Of a DNA stretch of 64,000 nt, positions 1 to 7,077 are shown piece after piece. This stretch comes from Ruminococcus sp. (GTDB lineage: Bacteria > Bacillota > Clostridia > Oscillospirales > Ruminococcaceae): assembly GCA_017525915.1 (NCBI GenBank), contig JAFXSC010000021.1:1-64000 (forward strand), given 5' to 3'. The notes beneath the pieces are model-generated. The model was not told the DNA's origin and ran no database searches. It was given only the letters and a program-made list of their open reading frames with translations. The translations under genes and the position numbers were made by a program. The first letter of the stretch is position 1, and each line of letters opens with the position of its first letter.

Positions 1-46
1 CTCCGTGGTCGGCTACACGCTGCCTGGATTTTACTTGTTTGTTCAT
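1..46 (-). CDS. Start of a probable DNA (adenine) methyltransferase, cut by the window edge
   Basis: Only the first 15 codons are present, reading leftward from an ATG at 44-46 with an AAAGGAA ribosome site just upstream. They give MNKQVKSRQRVADHG. The K/R-x-R-V-x-D-H-G pattern is the usual opening of large Firmicute methylase/restriction proteins carried on integrative elements (the sequence normally continues E-V-F-T). It is divergent from the XRE regulator gene at 174, so the two probably share a control region. The assignment rests on a very short stretch and could be wrong; the reading frame and ribosome site are directly visible. Confidence 0.5.
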   Translation of the reverse strand, partial: MNKQVKSRQRVADHG

Positions 47-173
47 AATGGTTCCTTTATAGAATTTCTATCTATTTATTTGAATAAAATTCATCTATTA
101 TTCTACAATTATATCATAATATAGAATTAAATTCAAGTTTCGCACTGTAAAATTTTAATGTGAGGAAAATTCT
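47..173. promoter_or_regulatory. Divergent control region with three AT-rich palindromes
   Basis: Between the divergent methylase-like and XRE genes lie three short inverted repeats of related sequence: TAGAATTTCTA (60-70), TGAATAAAATTCA (81-93) and GAATTAAATTC (124-134). All share a GAAT/ATTC half-site. They are good candidates for operators of the adjacent XRE repressor. A GAGGAAAA ribosome site precedes the ATG at 174. Function is inferred from position and symmetry. Confidence 0.4.
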
Positions 174-539
174 ATGCATGAACCGTATGATTTTGGAATA
201 ATACTGAGAGATCTTAGAAAAAGTAAGGGTTATACGCAAAAGCGCCTTGCAGATATGCTTGGTCTGTCCGTTACAGCAGTTAGTAAATATGAGATAAATC
301 AGTCGTCCCCGCCTCTCGAAACACTTCGTGCCATTTCAAATATCTTCAATGTTTCTATTGATGAACTGTTGGGGACTGAGCAGCGAGGCAAACTCTCTAC
401 TACAGGGCTGAGTGAAGAGCAGACTGATATAGTCAAAAAGCTCATTGCTTCGTTCCGAAATAATTCGTCCAAAAATAAAAAACTCTCCCCCGAAAGCTGT
501 CAGCTTTTGGGAGAGATCGTTGAGGAGTTGTCTAAGTAA
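174..539 (+). CDS. XRE-family helix-turn-helix transcriptional regulator
   Basis: This 121-residue protein has a classic Cro/CI-type HTH in residues about 9-65 (L-R-K-S-K-G-Y-T-Q-K-R-L-A-D... S-x-x-A-V-S-K-Y-E), followed by the 'ISNIFNVSIDELLG' ending typical of the HTH_3 family. The C-terminal 50 residues are charged and probably dimerise. It should bind palindromic DNA; three candidate sites lie just upstream. It sits between a divergent methylase-like gene and an Abi-type gene, so it probably controls this cargo. The last 60 bases of the gene fold into a hairpin (483-489 with 509-515, and 493-498 with 502-507) that has no T-run and so is not an obvious terminator. Confidence 0.85.
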   Translation: MHEPYDFGIILRDLRKSKGYTQKRLADMLGLSVTAVSKYEINQSSPPLETLRAISNIFNVSIDELLGTEQRGKLSTTGLSEEQTDIVKKLIASFRNNSSKNKKLSPESCQLLGEIVEELSK

Positions 540-582
540 ATAATTGTTAAAATAAAATTAATATTTTTCCATATTCTTTCTA

Positions 583-611
583 TTGACTTTTTTACTCGGA
601 TAGCATATAAT
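583..611 (+). promoter_or_regulatory. Sigma-A promoter for hairpin RNA and Abi gene
   Basis: TTGACT at 583-588 and TATAAT at 606-611 are separated by exactly 17 bases. The predicted start is near 618, immediately before the hairpin at 624-661, so the transcript would begin with that structure. Confidence 0.75.
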
Positions 612-617
612 ATAAGT

Positions 618-663
618 AACAGAACCCGACACGCCTCTAAACTATGCGTACCACGTCGGGTCA
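618..663 (+). ncRNA. Compact hairpin RNA upstream of the Abi gene
   Basis: The sequence folds into an outer stem ACCCGAC/GTCGGGT (624-630 with 655-661), a 3'-side bulge of five bases (650-654) and an inner stem ACGC/GCGT (631-634 with 646-649) closing an 11-base loop. It starts a few bases after a strong promoter and ends 24 bases before the Abi ATG. No T-run follows, so it can be a 5' leader or a processed small RNA. A structured RNA class linked to abiF-type genes (abiF RNA) is known from comparative genomics; membership of this hairpin in that class is my inference. Confidence 0.55.
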
Positions 664-684
664 TTTAATTATTGGGAGAAAAAT

Positions 685-1551
685 ATGGAACTTAAACAAC
701 AGCAGCCTGCTATGAACGTTGATGAGCAGATTGAAAATCTTAAGCGACTGGGTTTAGTTATAAATGATGAAGAATATGCCAAGCGGATTTTAGGAGATAT
801 TTCATATTTCCGACTTATAAAAGCCTATGGGCTTGGCTTAAAAAAGAAAAATGATCGCTTTGACGGAACTACTACTTTTGAGCAGATAGTAGAACTTTAC
901 CTGTTTAACGCAAATTTCAGACAGCTATTATTTTCAAGGATAGAGCAGATTGAAGTTAATCTAAGGTGTAGACTTGCAAATTATTTTTCTTGTAAATATG
1001 GTGTTCTTGGGTATGATACTCCTTCGAATTTTGTAAATCCCGATTATCATAATGAATTTTTATTGGATATTCAAAATGAAATAGAACGAAATAGTCGTGC
1101 TCCTTTTGTTAAGAACTTTCATAATAATTATGTTGACGGAAGAATTCCTTTCTACGCACTTGTAGAGCTGTTTAGTTTTGGTACGCTATCTAAATTTTAT
1201 AAAAATATGAAACCAGCTGATAAAAAGGAGATTGCTAAGTCTTATGGGGTAGGATATACATACCTTGAAAGCTGGATGGAGCATATTGCTTTTGTGCGCA
1301 ATATTTGCGCTCACTATGGCAGACTCTATAACGTAAATCTTGTCAAAACTCCTATGTTGTACAAGCAGTACAATCAAGCAGGGATAAGTAATATACGTGT
1401 ATTTGCAACGATTATTTGTATGAAGCACTTGTTGCCTACTGACAGTCATTGGAGTGAATTTGTTGATACAATTGCTCAATATCTTGAGAAGTATCCTCAT
1501 GTTGATATTCGTCTTATGGGATTTCCGAATAATTGGAAAGAATATATGTAG
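685..1551 (+). CDS. Abi_2/AbiF-type abortive infection protein (HEPN fold)
   Basis: The 288-residue protein matches the Abi_2 (AbiD/AbiF) family: the N-terminal 'Q...L...G...I.D...A...L..ISYFRL..Y' signature, a central 'LYLFNANFRQLLFSRIEQIEVNLRCRLA' type helix region, and a C-terminal R205-N-I-C-A-H210 motif. That R-x4-H pattern is the HEPN ribonuclease active-site signature. Family knowledge says such proteins act as growth-arresting toxins in phage defence. GGGAGAA precedes the ATG. It has its own promoter and a hairpin in the leader that may serve as RNA antidote or regulator. The low GC and neighbours fit mobile cargo. The family call is secure; RNase activity is inferred from the motif. 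Confidence 0.85.
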   Translation: MELKQQQPAMNVDEQIENLKRLGLVINDEEYAKRILGDISYFRLIKAYGLGLKKKNDRFDGTTTFEQIVELYLFNANFRQLLFSRIEQIEVNLRCRLANYFSCKYGVLGYDTPSNFVNPDYHNEFLLDIQNEIERNSRAPFVKNFHNNYVDGRIPFYALVELFSFGTLSKFYKNMKPADKKEIAKSYGVGYTYLESWMEHIAFVRNICAHYGRLYNVNLVKTPMLYKQYNQAGISNIRVFATIICMKHLLPTDSHWSEFVDTIAQYLEKYPHVDIRLMGFPNNWKEYM

Positions 1552-1682
1552 AATAGATTCATATTGTTGGATAATTATAAACTTATAAAGCCTTGCATAC
1601 TCCTTATTTTATTTCACAGTGTCAAAAATAGTTGTTTCTATGCTTTTTGATACTTTTGTTTGAATCTACGAAAGGAGAACAA

Positions 1683-2687
1683 ATGTCAATATATTTTCAT
1701 GATTATGATAAGCTATATCCGGAGCTTGTAATTGAAATTCTTGAATATTTTGAAATTTCGAACGCTACTGACGGAAAGCCTAATGATAAGTCAATAAGAA
1801 AGTTTTGCGCAAAAAACAATTTCAAATATCAACCAGTTCCAATCAATAGAATATGCAAACGTCTTTGTGAATGTAATCATATGGACATTGTTCGTAGTGG
1901 AGGATTTTTAGATCTTGATAGTAATTATGTTGTAATATTTAAAGATAAAGCTCTTTTTGAATCACAACGAAACCAGCTTTCTTTCTATTTCAATTCTGTA
2001 GTTTATGGCTTTGAGTATATTTATAGAATATATAAAGATCTTGTTGTGCCATTAGTATGGGAAAGAGAAAATGGTGAGTATTCTGCTGGAACTGGATTTA
2101 AGTTTAAAGATGGCATAGTTACAGCTAAGCACTGTGTAACTGATGTAACTAATTTGCAAATAAAGGGCTATAAGGCCGAGGACTTAGAAGGAAAACCAAT
2201 TTATATTTCTGAAAACGAAGGAGTGGATTTAGCTTTTATTGAAACAGGTAAAATATCTACCCCTATATTGCTTGCTGAGGAAGGGGAAATAATGCAGGAA
2301 GTTATTGTTATGGGATACCCTAAAATACCTGCATTTACTCAATTTTTAACAGCTGAAAAGGCTACAATTTCAAGTAAAGCATCATCAAGGATTACGCCAA
2401 CCAAAGGAGCAATTGCTGCATATGGATATGAGTATTTATCTAAAATTGATGCCATGCTTATTACTGCAAGAATAAGAGGTGGAAATAGCGGCGGTCCAAT
2501 CATTAATCAAAACGGCTGCCTTGTTGGAGTAGCTTGTCATATACCTGATGCCAATCCTGAAAATGGAGATTATGATGATATGGGATATGGTGTGGCGATA
2601 CCTGTTAGTTATTTATTGGATTTAATTGATAAAAAAAGCAAGCAATTGCCCACACACCATAACTTCTTTAAAGATTTTATTGAATAG
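1683..2687 (+). CDS. Intracellular trypsin-like serine protease with unknown N-terminal domain
   Basis: A 334-residue protein with a chymotrypsin/trypsin-fold peptidase in residues about 125-325. The full triad is visible: H150 in 'TAKHC', D182 in 'GVDLAF', and S269 in 'GGNSGGP'. No signal peptide or membrane segment is present, so it should act in the cytoplasm. Residues 1 to about 110 are unrecognised, with a K/R-rich helical pattern that could be a winged helix. The start at 1683 is chosen because AAAGGAGAAC lies 5-13 bases upstream; an upstream TTG at 1632 lacks a ribosome site. It follows the Abi gene on the same strand by 131 bases. Cytoplasmic trypsin-like proteases occur as effectors in some bacterial immunity systems; that role here is a hypothesis. 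Confidence 0.75.
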   Translation: MSIYFHDYDKLYPELVIEILEYFEISNATDGKPNDKSIRKFCAKNNFKYQPVPINRICKRLCECNHMDIVRSGGFLDLDSNYVVIFKDKALFESQRNQLSFYFNSVVYGFEYIYRIYKDLVVPLVWERENGEYSAGTGFKFKDGIVTAKHCVTDVTNLQIKGYKAEDLEGKPIYISENEGVDLAFIETGKISTPILLAEEGEIMQEVIVMGYPKIPAFTQFLTAEKATISSKASSRITPTKGAIAAYGYEYLSKIDAMLITARIRGGNSGGPIINQNGCLVGVACHIPDANPENGDYDDMGYGVAIPVSYLLDLIDKKSKQLPTHHNFFKDFIE

Positions 2688-2738
2688 GATTGCATAGTTA
2701 TTCTTTGATCAGTGTTATCTATCATGTAAGAGCATATT

Positions 2739-3890
2739 TTATATCCTAATAAGCTCCTGATACTCCTCCATCTCCAGCTCGCCATCAGCAGCTTTTGTAC
2801 GAAGCTCAATAGCGTAGTCACCCCACTCAGCGAACTGGGACTTGCTCATTTTCTTTTTCATATAGCGAGCGTAGTGCTGCTTGTATGCGCGGTTGTATAT
2901 CTCCCACACAGGATCACTCTTTATCTTCTCCTTGAAGTTATGACTCATTGCATTGTCACGACAAGTCTTCGGAGGATTGCTGCTGACCAGTCGCTTGCAG
3001 TAGTGTGAGAATGTAGTGTGCTTCATGATGAACCACCGACCGCAGTTGCGGCACTTGACAGGCATGAACTTCTCTTCAATGCATTTGAACAATTCAAAAT
3101 ACAGAAAGGCTCCCAGCGATGTGAAACGATAAGTCTCACAGAGTATGGGACCTTTTTTCGTCTCGATAACTGTGTGTCCCATGCACATACTTCCGCTTGA
3201 AATAATGCCCCTATATTTTTGAAATGTGTCAATCACTTTCTGAGTTGTCGGATAACTGTTGTGGTCACAAAGCTCGTCTACAAACGGCATAAAGATTTTC
3301 TTGACGCGGATAATGTCCTCGATAAAAGTTGAGAACTCGTTCGTCATCTGTTCGATACAAGTTGTGAAATCGGCAGCATCTTTTCTGTTCTCGTAGTTGC
3401 TGAAAACCTTCTTGCTGTCAAATTCGTAATCAGATAACGCTCGCAGTTCATTCAACTCTTCCGTGATATACATTTCCTCATAGGACACAGGAGTACTCTC
3501 TGCGTTGACAAAGTGTTCGTTGTAGTCATCGACTTCAAACTCCGAGTCCTCATAAAATGGCTCATCAAAAATGTCGTTGTAGTACGCAAACAGATTTCTA
3601 AGCAGACCATGTTTGAAATGTTTTGTGTCGTAGGGCGGAAGTGACTTCGCAATGTCCATGATGCTATCGTATGCGAATTCAATTTCCTGTGCGCACTTGC
3701 CTATGTCAGCAGGACAGAACAAGGAACTGATGTTCAGCTCAGACTTTGCACGTTCACATACGTCAAACAGTTCACCTAAGTCATAAAAATTCATTGAAGA
3801 ATAGCGCTGAAGTATCTCTCCGAGCGGATAAACTCTGCCGTCGGAAAGATATATTTTTCTGTCATGGTAGTGTGCTTCTATCTCAAACAT
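2739..3890 (-). CDS. DUF6076-like protein with C-terminal zinc-binding motif
   Basis: This 383-residue protein is not assignable to a biochemical function. It resembles DUF6076 proteins common on Firmicute integrative elements. Residues about 280-305 contain C280-x2-C283-G-R-W-F, then H-Y-C and a later C-R-D-N, a probable zinc-ribbon-like site. A Lys/Arg-rich helical stretch ('YNRAYKQHYARYMKKKM') follows and may contact nucleic acid. The N-terminal 250 residues are acidic and probably helical. AAAGGAA lies before the ATG at 3888-3890. It runs opposite to its neighbours, leaving a 260-base gap that holds a divergent promoter. Confidence 0.6.
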   Translation of the reverse strand: MFEIEAHYHDRKIYLSDGRVYPLGEILQRYSSMNFYDLGELFDVCERAKSELNISSLFCPADIGKCAQEIEFAYDSIMDIAKSLPPYDTKHFKHGLLRNLFAYYNDIFDEPFYEDSEFEVDDYNEHFVNAESTPVSYEEMYITEELNELRALSDYEFDSKKVFSNYENRKDAADFTTCIEQMTNEFSTFIEDIIRVKKIFMPFVDELCDHNSYPTTQKVIDTFQKYRGIISSGSMCMGHTVIETKKGPILCETYRFTSLGAFLYFELFKCIEEKFMPVKCRNCGRWFIMKHTTFSHYCKRLVSSNPPKTCRDNAMSHNFKEKIKSDPVWEIYNRAYKQHYARYMKKKMSKSQFAEWGDYAIELRTKAADGELEMEEYQELIRI

Positions 3891-4033
3891 AATAATTCCT
3901 TTCAGAAATAGCGTTCTATTTCGTCAGAGTGTATAACACTGCGGATTGCTTTGAAAATAGCTGTATAAATAGCTTGAAATCAAAAGTTTACAATTTGTTC
4001 ACAAAAATAGATTATAGATTGAACTCGGTAGAG

Positions 4034-5424: not shown

Positions 5425-7077
5425 ATGAAAACAGAATCAAACACGAATCAGATAACAGCGCTGTACTGCCGCCTCAGTTAGGAAGATATGCGTGCAGGCG
5501 AGTCGCTGTCAATTGAAAATCAAAGATTGATGTTGAAGGAATATGCAGACAAGAACGGCTTCCGCAATTGTCAGTATTACATCGATGACGGATACAGCGG
5601 CACCGATAATACTCGTCCAGAGTACGTTCATATGCTCAGAGATGTTGAAAACGGACTTGTCGGAGCAGTCATTGTGAAAGACCAGTCGAGACTTGGACGT
5701 GACCACTTAGATACCGATAGGCTTATGGAACTGGTGTTCCCTGCATACGATGTGCGCTTCATTGCTATCACCGACAACGTGGACAGTGCCAATGGTATCA
5801 ACGAGATGTCAGGTATCAAAAATCTGTTCAACGATATGTACGCCCGGGACTGTTCAAAAAAGATAAGGGCTGTACTCAGAGCAAAAGGCGAACGCGGAGA
5901 ACGTCTTGCAGCATGGATAGCATACGGTTATATGAGAGATCCAAGCAATCCAAAGCAGATTATACCAGATCCTGAGACAGCACCTGTCGTCAAGCGAATC
6001 TTTGAAATGTACGCAAGTGGAATAGGCATCAAACGCATCTGCGGAATTCTTGAACAGGAACAAGTGCTGTCACCCAGCGCTTACAATTACCGAAAGAACG
6101 GCAGCCGTTCAAGAGACTTAAAGCTTGACAAGCCTTACGCATGGGCGAAAAATACTATACGCAAAATGCTATCGAATCAAATTTACTGCGGAGATACGGT
6201 CAACTTCAAGACCTATTCAAAGTCCAACAAGCTGAAAAAGCGTATCAAGAACGCTCCAGAGAATATGAGGATATTCCCGAATACCCATGAAGCGATCATC
6301 GACAGAGCGACATTTGATCTTGTACAGAAGAACTTTGAAGGACGAAAGCGTGCAGACAAGCGCGGCGAGTTGGACAAGTATGCAGGTTACCTTTACTGTG
6401 CAGAATGCGGTTCGAGGCTGTACCGTAATCGAGACAATGCTCATGGATACGATAGCTACCGCTGCGGACACTATGAAAGCCGCAAAAGCGACTGCACTTC
6501 ACATTACATTCGTGAAAGTGTGCTCGACGAGATAGTGTTAAGAGCACTGAAAAAGGTAACAAAATACGCAAGGGAGCGCTCGGACGAGTTTTACAAAGAC
6601 GCCATGAGAAACGGCGAAGCAGAAGCTGCAAAGAATTTGAAAGAGTCAGAAAGCCTTAGAATTGAATACGAGTCCAAGATAAAGCAGATTGACAACGCAA
6701 TACAGCTTCTCTATATGGACAGGTCTAACGGCAAAATTACAGACGAGCGTTATGAACTTCTATCTGCAAGTTTTGAAAATGAGCAGACTGAGCTGAAAGC
6801 AAAGCTCAGCACCCTCAACTCGCAGCTTGATGAAGTGAAAGTGCGTGAGAAATGTATCCGTTACTTTATCACCAAGGCTAAGAGGTATGTAACAATTTCA
6901 AAGGTTACGCCTGAGCTCCTGAGAGCTTTTATAGAGCGAATCGAAGTCCACGAAAAGGCTGTAAAACGTTCAAGGACCTGCGGTAATCACATAGTCATCT
7001 ACTTCACATTTCACCCGGACAAAGCCTTCAGGCTTGACGGAGAGATGGACGAGCTTGGCATGACTAAGTTTGCATAA
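5425..7077 (+). pseudogene. tnpX: TnpX-type large serine recombinase, broken by a nonsense codon
   Basis: The ancestral gene starts at ATG 5425 after CAGGAGG and begins M-K-T-E-S-N-T-N-Q-I-T-A-L-Y-C-R-L-S, the catalytic-serine motif (Y-x-R-x-S). The next codon, 5479-5481, is TAG; the frame then continues E-D-M-R-A-G-E-S-L-S-I-E-N-Q without a shift for 532 codons. Relatives usually have Q, K or R at this place, so one base change (for example CAG to TAG) explains it. The rest is intact: resolvase domain, recombinase domain, zinc ribbon C-x2-C ... C, a coiled coil and a DUF4368-like end. Restart at ATG 5488 would lack the nucleophile. A GAAGCAGCTGCTTC palindrome (5396-5409) precedes the ribosome site. 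Mobility is probably lost. Confidence 0.85.

Follow-up and report, generated by a model that had tools for sequence, protein, structure and literature searches.

An abiF RNA hairpin in the leader of an AbiF-type toxin gene from Ruminococcus, with solitary relatives of the RNA in phages

Introduction

At the start of a contig from Ruminococcus sp. (GenBank assembly GCA_017525915.1, contig JAFXSC010000021.1), a promoter is followed by a small hairpin and then by a gene for an Abi_2 protein with the catalytic motif of HEPN ribonucleases. What does the hairpin do for the protein? The original prediction, made from the letters alone, saw an RNA-controlled toxin, the hairpin serving either as a type III-like antidote RNA or as a leader that the toxin binds or cleaves, and regarded the mechanism as unsettled. 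That last point has been overtaken: work published in 2025 describes the toxicity of AbiF, its binding of RNA and its neutralisation (PMC12373285; published work is cited here from excerpts of the papers), and the RNA-toxin pairing at this locus is of a kind already in print. We analysed the first 64,000 nucleotides of the contig (the window) together with related loci from bacteria and phages. RNA control is supported, as the hairpin is conserved upstream of the toxin gene and its stems covary. By comparison with published relatives, the locus is very likely an AbiF-type toxin-antitoxin operon in which a hairpin RNA, AbiFr, would bind and silence AbiF.

Results

Toxin gene and leader

The features of the locus are collected in Table 1. 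We observed that RNA and toxin each fall into their family, that the RNA covaries, that the two are physically linked and that the catalytic motif is intact. The toxin matches one Pfam family only, PF07751 (Abi_2; E 2.6e-53, 181.5 bits against a cut-off of 25.6), as well as the PADLOC AbiD model (E 5.3e-101). In the PDB, the Abi family protein 8VZ6 aligns with residues 8–285 (E 1.1e-36) and is the sole relative at E ≤1. The R, N, C, A and H of RNICAH are invariant in a 16-sequence alignment (A4) that includes the protein of phage phiC2, and the Abi_2 gene with an intact HEPN R-x4-H motif (R205 and H210) is thereby borne out. The nearest named relative that we found belongs to Ruminococcus flavefaciens (96 percent protein identity); no relative came up when viral contigs were searched at protein level with the same toxin. 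A CRISPR-Cas13 effector is excluded by size and motif count, the protein having 288 residues and one R-x4-H motif as against a Cas13-size effector with two HEPN domains. A search of positions 1–4000 for a CRISPR array gave no direct repeat (at least 18 nt, copies at most 400 nt apart) with more than two copies.

Table 1. Coordinates of the promoter, leader and toxin features in the window.
Feature	Positions	Strand	Basis
Sigma-70-type promoter	583..611	+	-35 TTGACT 583-588, -10 TATAAT 606-611, 17-nt spacer
Conserved single-stranded tail AACAGA / predicted RNA 5' end	618..623	+	AACAGA invariant in close-homologue alignment; start site predicted
abiF RNA hairpin (RF03085)	624..661	+	Rfam match, MFE structure, covariation
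U-rich tail CATTTAATTATT, possible leaky terminator remnant	662..673	+	conserved in window clade; role putative
Ribosome-binding site GGGAGA	674..679	+	read from sequence, relative to ATG 685
abiF/abi_2 toxin gene, 288 aa, HEPN RNase family	685..1551	+	PF07751, PADLOC AbiD, PDB 8VZ6
HEPN catalytic motif R205-N-I-C-A-H210 (RNICAH, R-x4-H)	1297..1314	+	translation

The promoter agrees with the consensus at 11 of 12 positions and is the best-scoring site between positions 400 and 1750. Sites with at least nine matches are no commoner there than in shuffled sequence (7 observed, 6.6 expected), so the case for this promoter rests on conservation. TATAAT was scored 12 nt 5' of the stem in 10 of the 11 loci of the window clade, the window counted; in L009 it was scored at 17 nt, and since that sequence has another copy at 12 nt, all 11 have it. 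The consensus promoter expected ahead of the hairpin thus holds, on the near-complete match and on a -10 box conserved in the window clade. At the other end of the leader, the hairpin does lie close to the gene as originally described, though the distance given, 24 bases, needs correction: between the last hairpin base, 661, and the ATG at 685 there are 23 nt.

Structure and covariation of the hairpin

The minimum free energy fold reproduces the two-tier hairpin, stems included, that had been described beforehand: an outer stem of 7 bp (624–630/655–661) and an inner stem of 4 bp (631–634/646–649) enclose a loop at 635–645, with a bulge at 650–654. Rfam model RF03085 (abiF RNA) matches positions 625–661 at 38.0 bits, one bit over its gathering cut-off of 37, and places the hairpin in the family that the original prediction had brought up. 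Neither Rfam nor our covariance model R2 finds another abiF RNA in the host assembly, which has one Abi_2 gene. Folding energy alone makes a modest, marginal case (z of -2.9 for the 39-nt hairpin, -1.1 in a 70-nt context and -0.6 in a 91-nt context); it is conservation and covariation that make the hairpin convincing.

In an alignment of the window with ten close relatives, TATAAT, the AACAGA tail and the hairpin are present in 11 of 11 rows; absence of the hairpin upstream of close Abi_2 homologues, which would have spoken against the prediction, was found in none of the ten. The stems hardly vary among these relatives, which therefore yield little covariation. Across Bacillota, in an alignment of 34 sequences (A2), 95.7 percent of stem cells are paired, both partners are changed in 44 cells (11.7 in shuffles), and the covariation score is 0.407 against 0.160 in shuffles; sliding the partner by one column lowers pairing to 36–37 percent. 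As the A2 segments had been chosen by a script that demanded a stem of at least five pairs, some of this covariation arises by selection of the segments, and we therefore ran a stem-free test in which sites were anchored on loop sequence alone in 55 eligible upstream regions. The loop core was present in 29 of them, and all 29 have at least five of the six outer pairs (27 have all six). Random placement in the same regions equalled the pair count of a locus in 1 to 4.5 percent of the trials run for it. Among the other 26 regions, inspection by eye found some related hairpins with variant loops and some other hairpins; five loci of a hairpin-less clade (below), gene fragments and further unclassified loci (L011, L012) are also among them. 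Both stems covary across Bacillota and are kept by selection; the lack of covariation that would have told against the prediction was not seen. Two alignments, A3 and A5, were fitted to the model, A5 with toxin-linked copies included. A pairing of 5' AGAG with loop CUCU, noticed by eye, was dropped when several loci proved to have no CUCU, and covariance model R1, built with the promoter included, was set aside.

Sequence, and not pairing alone, is conserved. ACAG precedes the stem in 25 of the 29 loop-anchored loci, and the loop, the bulge and the 5' tail are conserved in sequence, the loop and bulge across families. This bears on a simple alternative, namely that the hairpin simply ends transcription arriving from upstream, as any intrinsic terminator would, and has no connection to the toxin. 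Its GC-rich stem and the U-rich tail behind it have the right look, but a terminator has no need of the conserved loop, bulge and tail, the hairpin begins about 6 nt downstream of its own predicted transcription start site, and a terminator scan of positions 400–1750 returned no terminator-like site. We regard a plain terminator as very improbable.

Linkage of the RNA to Abi_2 genes

Model R2 finds the element upstream and on the same strand in 36 of 56 Abi_2 loci; 34 of these 36 had gone into building the model, and two are the halves of a single broken gene. Among the 20 loci without it are Abi_2 groups whose leaders have different hairpins (judged by eye), fragments of genes, two loci left unclassified and a clade of five (L015, L016, L017, L018 and L020; SH-aLRT 99) that has an intact HEPN motif and no leader hairpin. 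Leader types were assigned by eye on a quick Abi_2 tree. Genes of the hairpin-less clade sit directly behind unrelated genes, by eye GpsA-like (two), histidine-phosphatase-like, AddA-like and LacI-like, and model R2, at E ≤0.1, gave only weak matches in one of the five genomes and none in the other four. These 20 loci indicate that Abi_2 proteins do not all require the RNA, which is common in the family and not universal. In one genome (G147, L036/L040), a single Abi_2 gene region has an abiF RNA on each side, ahead of it and behind it.

Neither the upstream helix-turn-helix (HTH) gene nor the downstream protease gene is conserved with the RNA-toxin pair among the loci compared, and for this reason we take RNA and toxin to be the unit. 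HTH genes often neighbour toxins, and the one at 174–539 lies 145 nt upstream of the toxin gene, where it might encode a protein antitoxin and leave the hairpin incidental. The only copy at that place among these loci is in L003, at 54 percent identity against 96 percent for the Abi_2 protein of the same locus; L006 has a weak match elsewhere in the locus (41 percent over 54 residues), its upstream sequence being too short to tell. Of the alternatives considered here, the HTH protein as partner is the least probable, and we give it next to no credence. The protease gene, trypsin-like, lies at 1632–2687 just 3' of the toxin gene and resembles part of RT-Protease defence models. Outside its own genome it has no match in L003 or the other compared loci, which indicates a variable island around the toxin. 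A serine recombinase gene (5488–7077) separates the variable stretch from housekeeping genes; an integrated element may carry the toxin.

Comparison with known systems and proposed action

Several published systems inform the reading of this locus. PbAbiF, from a Prevotellaceae bacterium of a different phylum from the window host, was solved with its ncRNA, a cis-encoded antitoxin (8VZ6; PMC12737573); it shares with our locus a homologous toxin (query residues 8–285) by protein comparison, and its ncRNA is likewise encoded in cis. The AbiF/AbiFr work of Zilberzwige-Tal et al. (Cell 2025) is cited here as described in PMC12737573, PMC12373285 and PMC12804078. In Clostridioides difficile, AbiFCd is toxic and the RNA RCd22 binds and neutralises it both in cis and in trans; mutations that break the RCd22 stem abolish neutralisation and pair-swapping ones do not, while changing R202 and H207 of AbiFCd together abolishes toxicity (PMC12373285). 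As described there, these loci (phi027, phiC2) resemble ours in having a sigma-A promoter, an abiF motif in the leader and an R-x4-H motif. The phiC2 Abi_2 protein is 34.9 percent identical to the window toxin, and the phiC2 leader has the same 5' ACAGA. The C. difficile RNA differs in its two motifs, its separate terminator and its place in a prophage lysis module (PMC12373285), whereas our locus has one motif and no separate terminator; a Pfam search of the six frames neighbouring the locus gave no lysis families.

ToxIN-type type III systems work alike in that an RNA antitoxin lies upstream of an RNase toxin, but they use tandem RNA repeats, a separate terminator and another toxin family (PMC5086642), none of which our locus has. 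Rfam and R2 find one element, a repeat search found no direct repeat there, and by sequence there is no ToxN-like toxin, Abi_2 being the sole Pfam family and 8VZ6 the sole PDB match. Judged on these matches, the locus would share the working of a type III system but not the ToxIN lineage; PMC12373285 and PMC12737573, in their available text, class AbiF under type III.

Guided by the published C. difficile mechanism and the invariance of R205 and H210, we read positions 618–673 as the putative antitoxin RNA and 685–1551 as the putative toxin. The leader hairpin is very probably the antidote of its toxin. Toxicity, RNA binding and neutralisation would be expected at this locus from the published relatives. 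In the course of events that we propose, the one promoter would give a transcript that opens with the single abiF RNA hairpin (AbiFr) and continues through the toxin gene. Once freed from the mRNA, by cutting or by termination, the hairpin would bind the dimeric HEPN ribonuclease AbiF and keep it inactive. Should phage infection or another stress stop new RNA synthesis or remove the RNA, AbiF would cleave RNA and growth would halt.

Release of the RNA

How might the hairpin come free of the mRNA? A run of at least four T follows the stem directly in 15 of 18 loop-anchored relatives outside the window clade, against 2 of 11 members of that clade, which has an interrupted TTTAATT tail in its place. 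In those relatives the hairpin may thus itself terminate. At our locus, where there is no separate terminator and the U-tract is interrupted (TTTAATTATT), weak termination at the hairpin and cleavage by the toxin are the candidates for freeing the RNA.

A terminator-like T-run in so many relatives is also what one would expect if the hairpin were mainly a cis-acting leader control, working as attenuator or translational switch rather than as a free antitoxin. The hairpin sits on the same transcript as the gene and 23 nt before its ATG, and RCd22 itself has a terminator by which it reduces expression in cis (PMC12373285). A further precedent is AbiD1 of Lactococcus lactis, a member of the same protein group, whose short leader contains a terminator and gives an early-terminated transcript of 50 bases; its control is described as translational activation by phage Orf1, and no RNA antitoxin role is described in the available text (PMC2661086). 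However, removal of that terminator from abiD1 translational fusions had no positive effect (PMC2661086). Moreover, RCd22 acts in trans (PMC12373285), and phage genomes that have no toxin gene keep the RNA, stem included (below). We consider a mainly cis-acting hairpin unlikely, although less so than either of the alternatives weighed above. Cis and trans roles are mutually compatible.

Solitary abiF RNAs in bacteria and phages

Not every abiF RNA has a toxin beside it. Of 28 RF03085 loci inspected for a toxin gene 3' of the RNA, 13 lacked any Abi_2-like frame within the locus (a contig end cuts two of these, and two have weak RNA scores), and two others had such frames upstream only. Bacterial abiF RNAs with no Abi_2-like frame in the locus are L037, L038, L042, L046, L047, L048, L051, L055 and L056; by eye, L047 looks like a toxin-deleted remnant and in L038 the RNA lies between repressor-like and integrase-like genes.

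Searching IMG/VR with the exact loop alone gave 103 stretches (L098–L200), and none with the reversed pattern. Loop conservation among these viral loci is by construction, given how they were chosen. The stem was not searched for, and 102 of the 103 have at least five of six outer stem pairs (93 have all six). An adjacent Abi_2 frame is present in nine and absent from 86, the remaining eight being cut off. Among the first 80 viral loci there are 65 distinct RNA segments; R2 matches 77 of these 80 at E ≤0.01, four of the 77 with a second copy, and the viral pairing covaries (score 0.453 against 0.113, toxin-linked copies included). A PF07751 search of whole records, covering 50 of the 103 loci, among them all eight adjacent-frame loci then known, found the family in 8 of 50 records (up to 182 kb, many of them fragments), the same eight. 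The first 80 loci include 56 distinct RNAs without a toxin; ten of these lie inside an ORF of at least 100 aa, compared with 881 of 1120 random placements. Some viral abiF RNAs stand in or beside tRNA arrays, and 14 of the 56 distinct toxin-less loci are within 600 nt of a tRNA gene, a count made without a control.

Nine named phages (L201–L209), taken from blastn matches, include the Bacillus phages SBSphiJ, phiNIT1 and Goe3 and the crAss-like cr7_1. R2 finds the RNA in all nine records (E 2e-10 to 1e-4), near locus positions 1483–1600 or, in L208, at 495–555; the matches in Stau2, phiSHEF4 and vB_EfaS_MF-DL are weak (27 bits). PF07751 is absent from all nine genomes, and the phiC2 control was positive. 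The RNA lies between annotated genes in each of the eight annotated records, that of SBSphiJ carrying no annotation; in P59 the model tail of the RNA touches the next tRNA. None of the nine reaches the Rfam cut-off, which may be why these RNAs are unannotated. In two records outside the nine, BSTP3 and SPG24 (NC_030903.1), a hypothetical protein is annotated over the RNA match. Skipping-rope RNAs (RF02924) above the gathering score occur at 2542–2612 in L202, 2906–2976 in L203 and 1421–1490 in L209, and share phage tRNA/small-RNA islands with the solitary abiF RNA.

The retention of a folded, covarying antitoxin RNA in phages that have no toxin suggests that it could serve as a decoy. On this proposal, for which we judge the balance to be even, abiF RNAs standing alone would be widespread in phages as decoy antitoxins, capturing host AbiF and thereby preventing abortive infection. 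The solitary RNA may instead have a phage-specific role unrelated to AbiF. There are precedents for countering defence by RNA mimicry in pseudo-ToxI, a phage RNA that silences ToxIN (PMC3475682), and in the solitary repeats that are RNA anti-CRISPRs (PMC10651486). A paper on cyanophage S-CREM1 reports one abiF sRNA and counts three phage genomes in Rfam, and its available text proposes no antitoxin role for the sRNA (PMC9964418). That copy is what our literature search aimed at toxin-less or phage-borne abiF RNAs gave; subscription papers lay mostly outside the search, so absence from print is not established.

Discussion

The locus is a compact, single-motif and terminator-poor example of the AbiF family, which recent work presents as the ancestor of Cas13 (PMC12737573). 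Its hairpin lies within the leader of its own toxin, and release of the antitoxin and its excess over the toxin thereby become directly testable questions. The abiF RNA has also proved useful as a probe, having led from an ordinary bacterial locus to toxin-less copies in phages. For the decoy proposal there are ready test phages in Bacillus subtilis, and if the proposal is true, AbiF would join ToxIN and CRISPR among the defences that phages counter by RNA mimicry.
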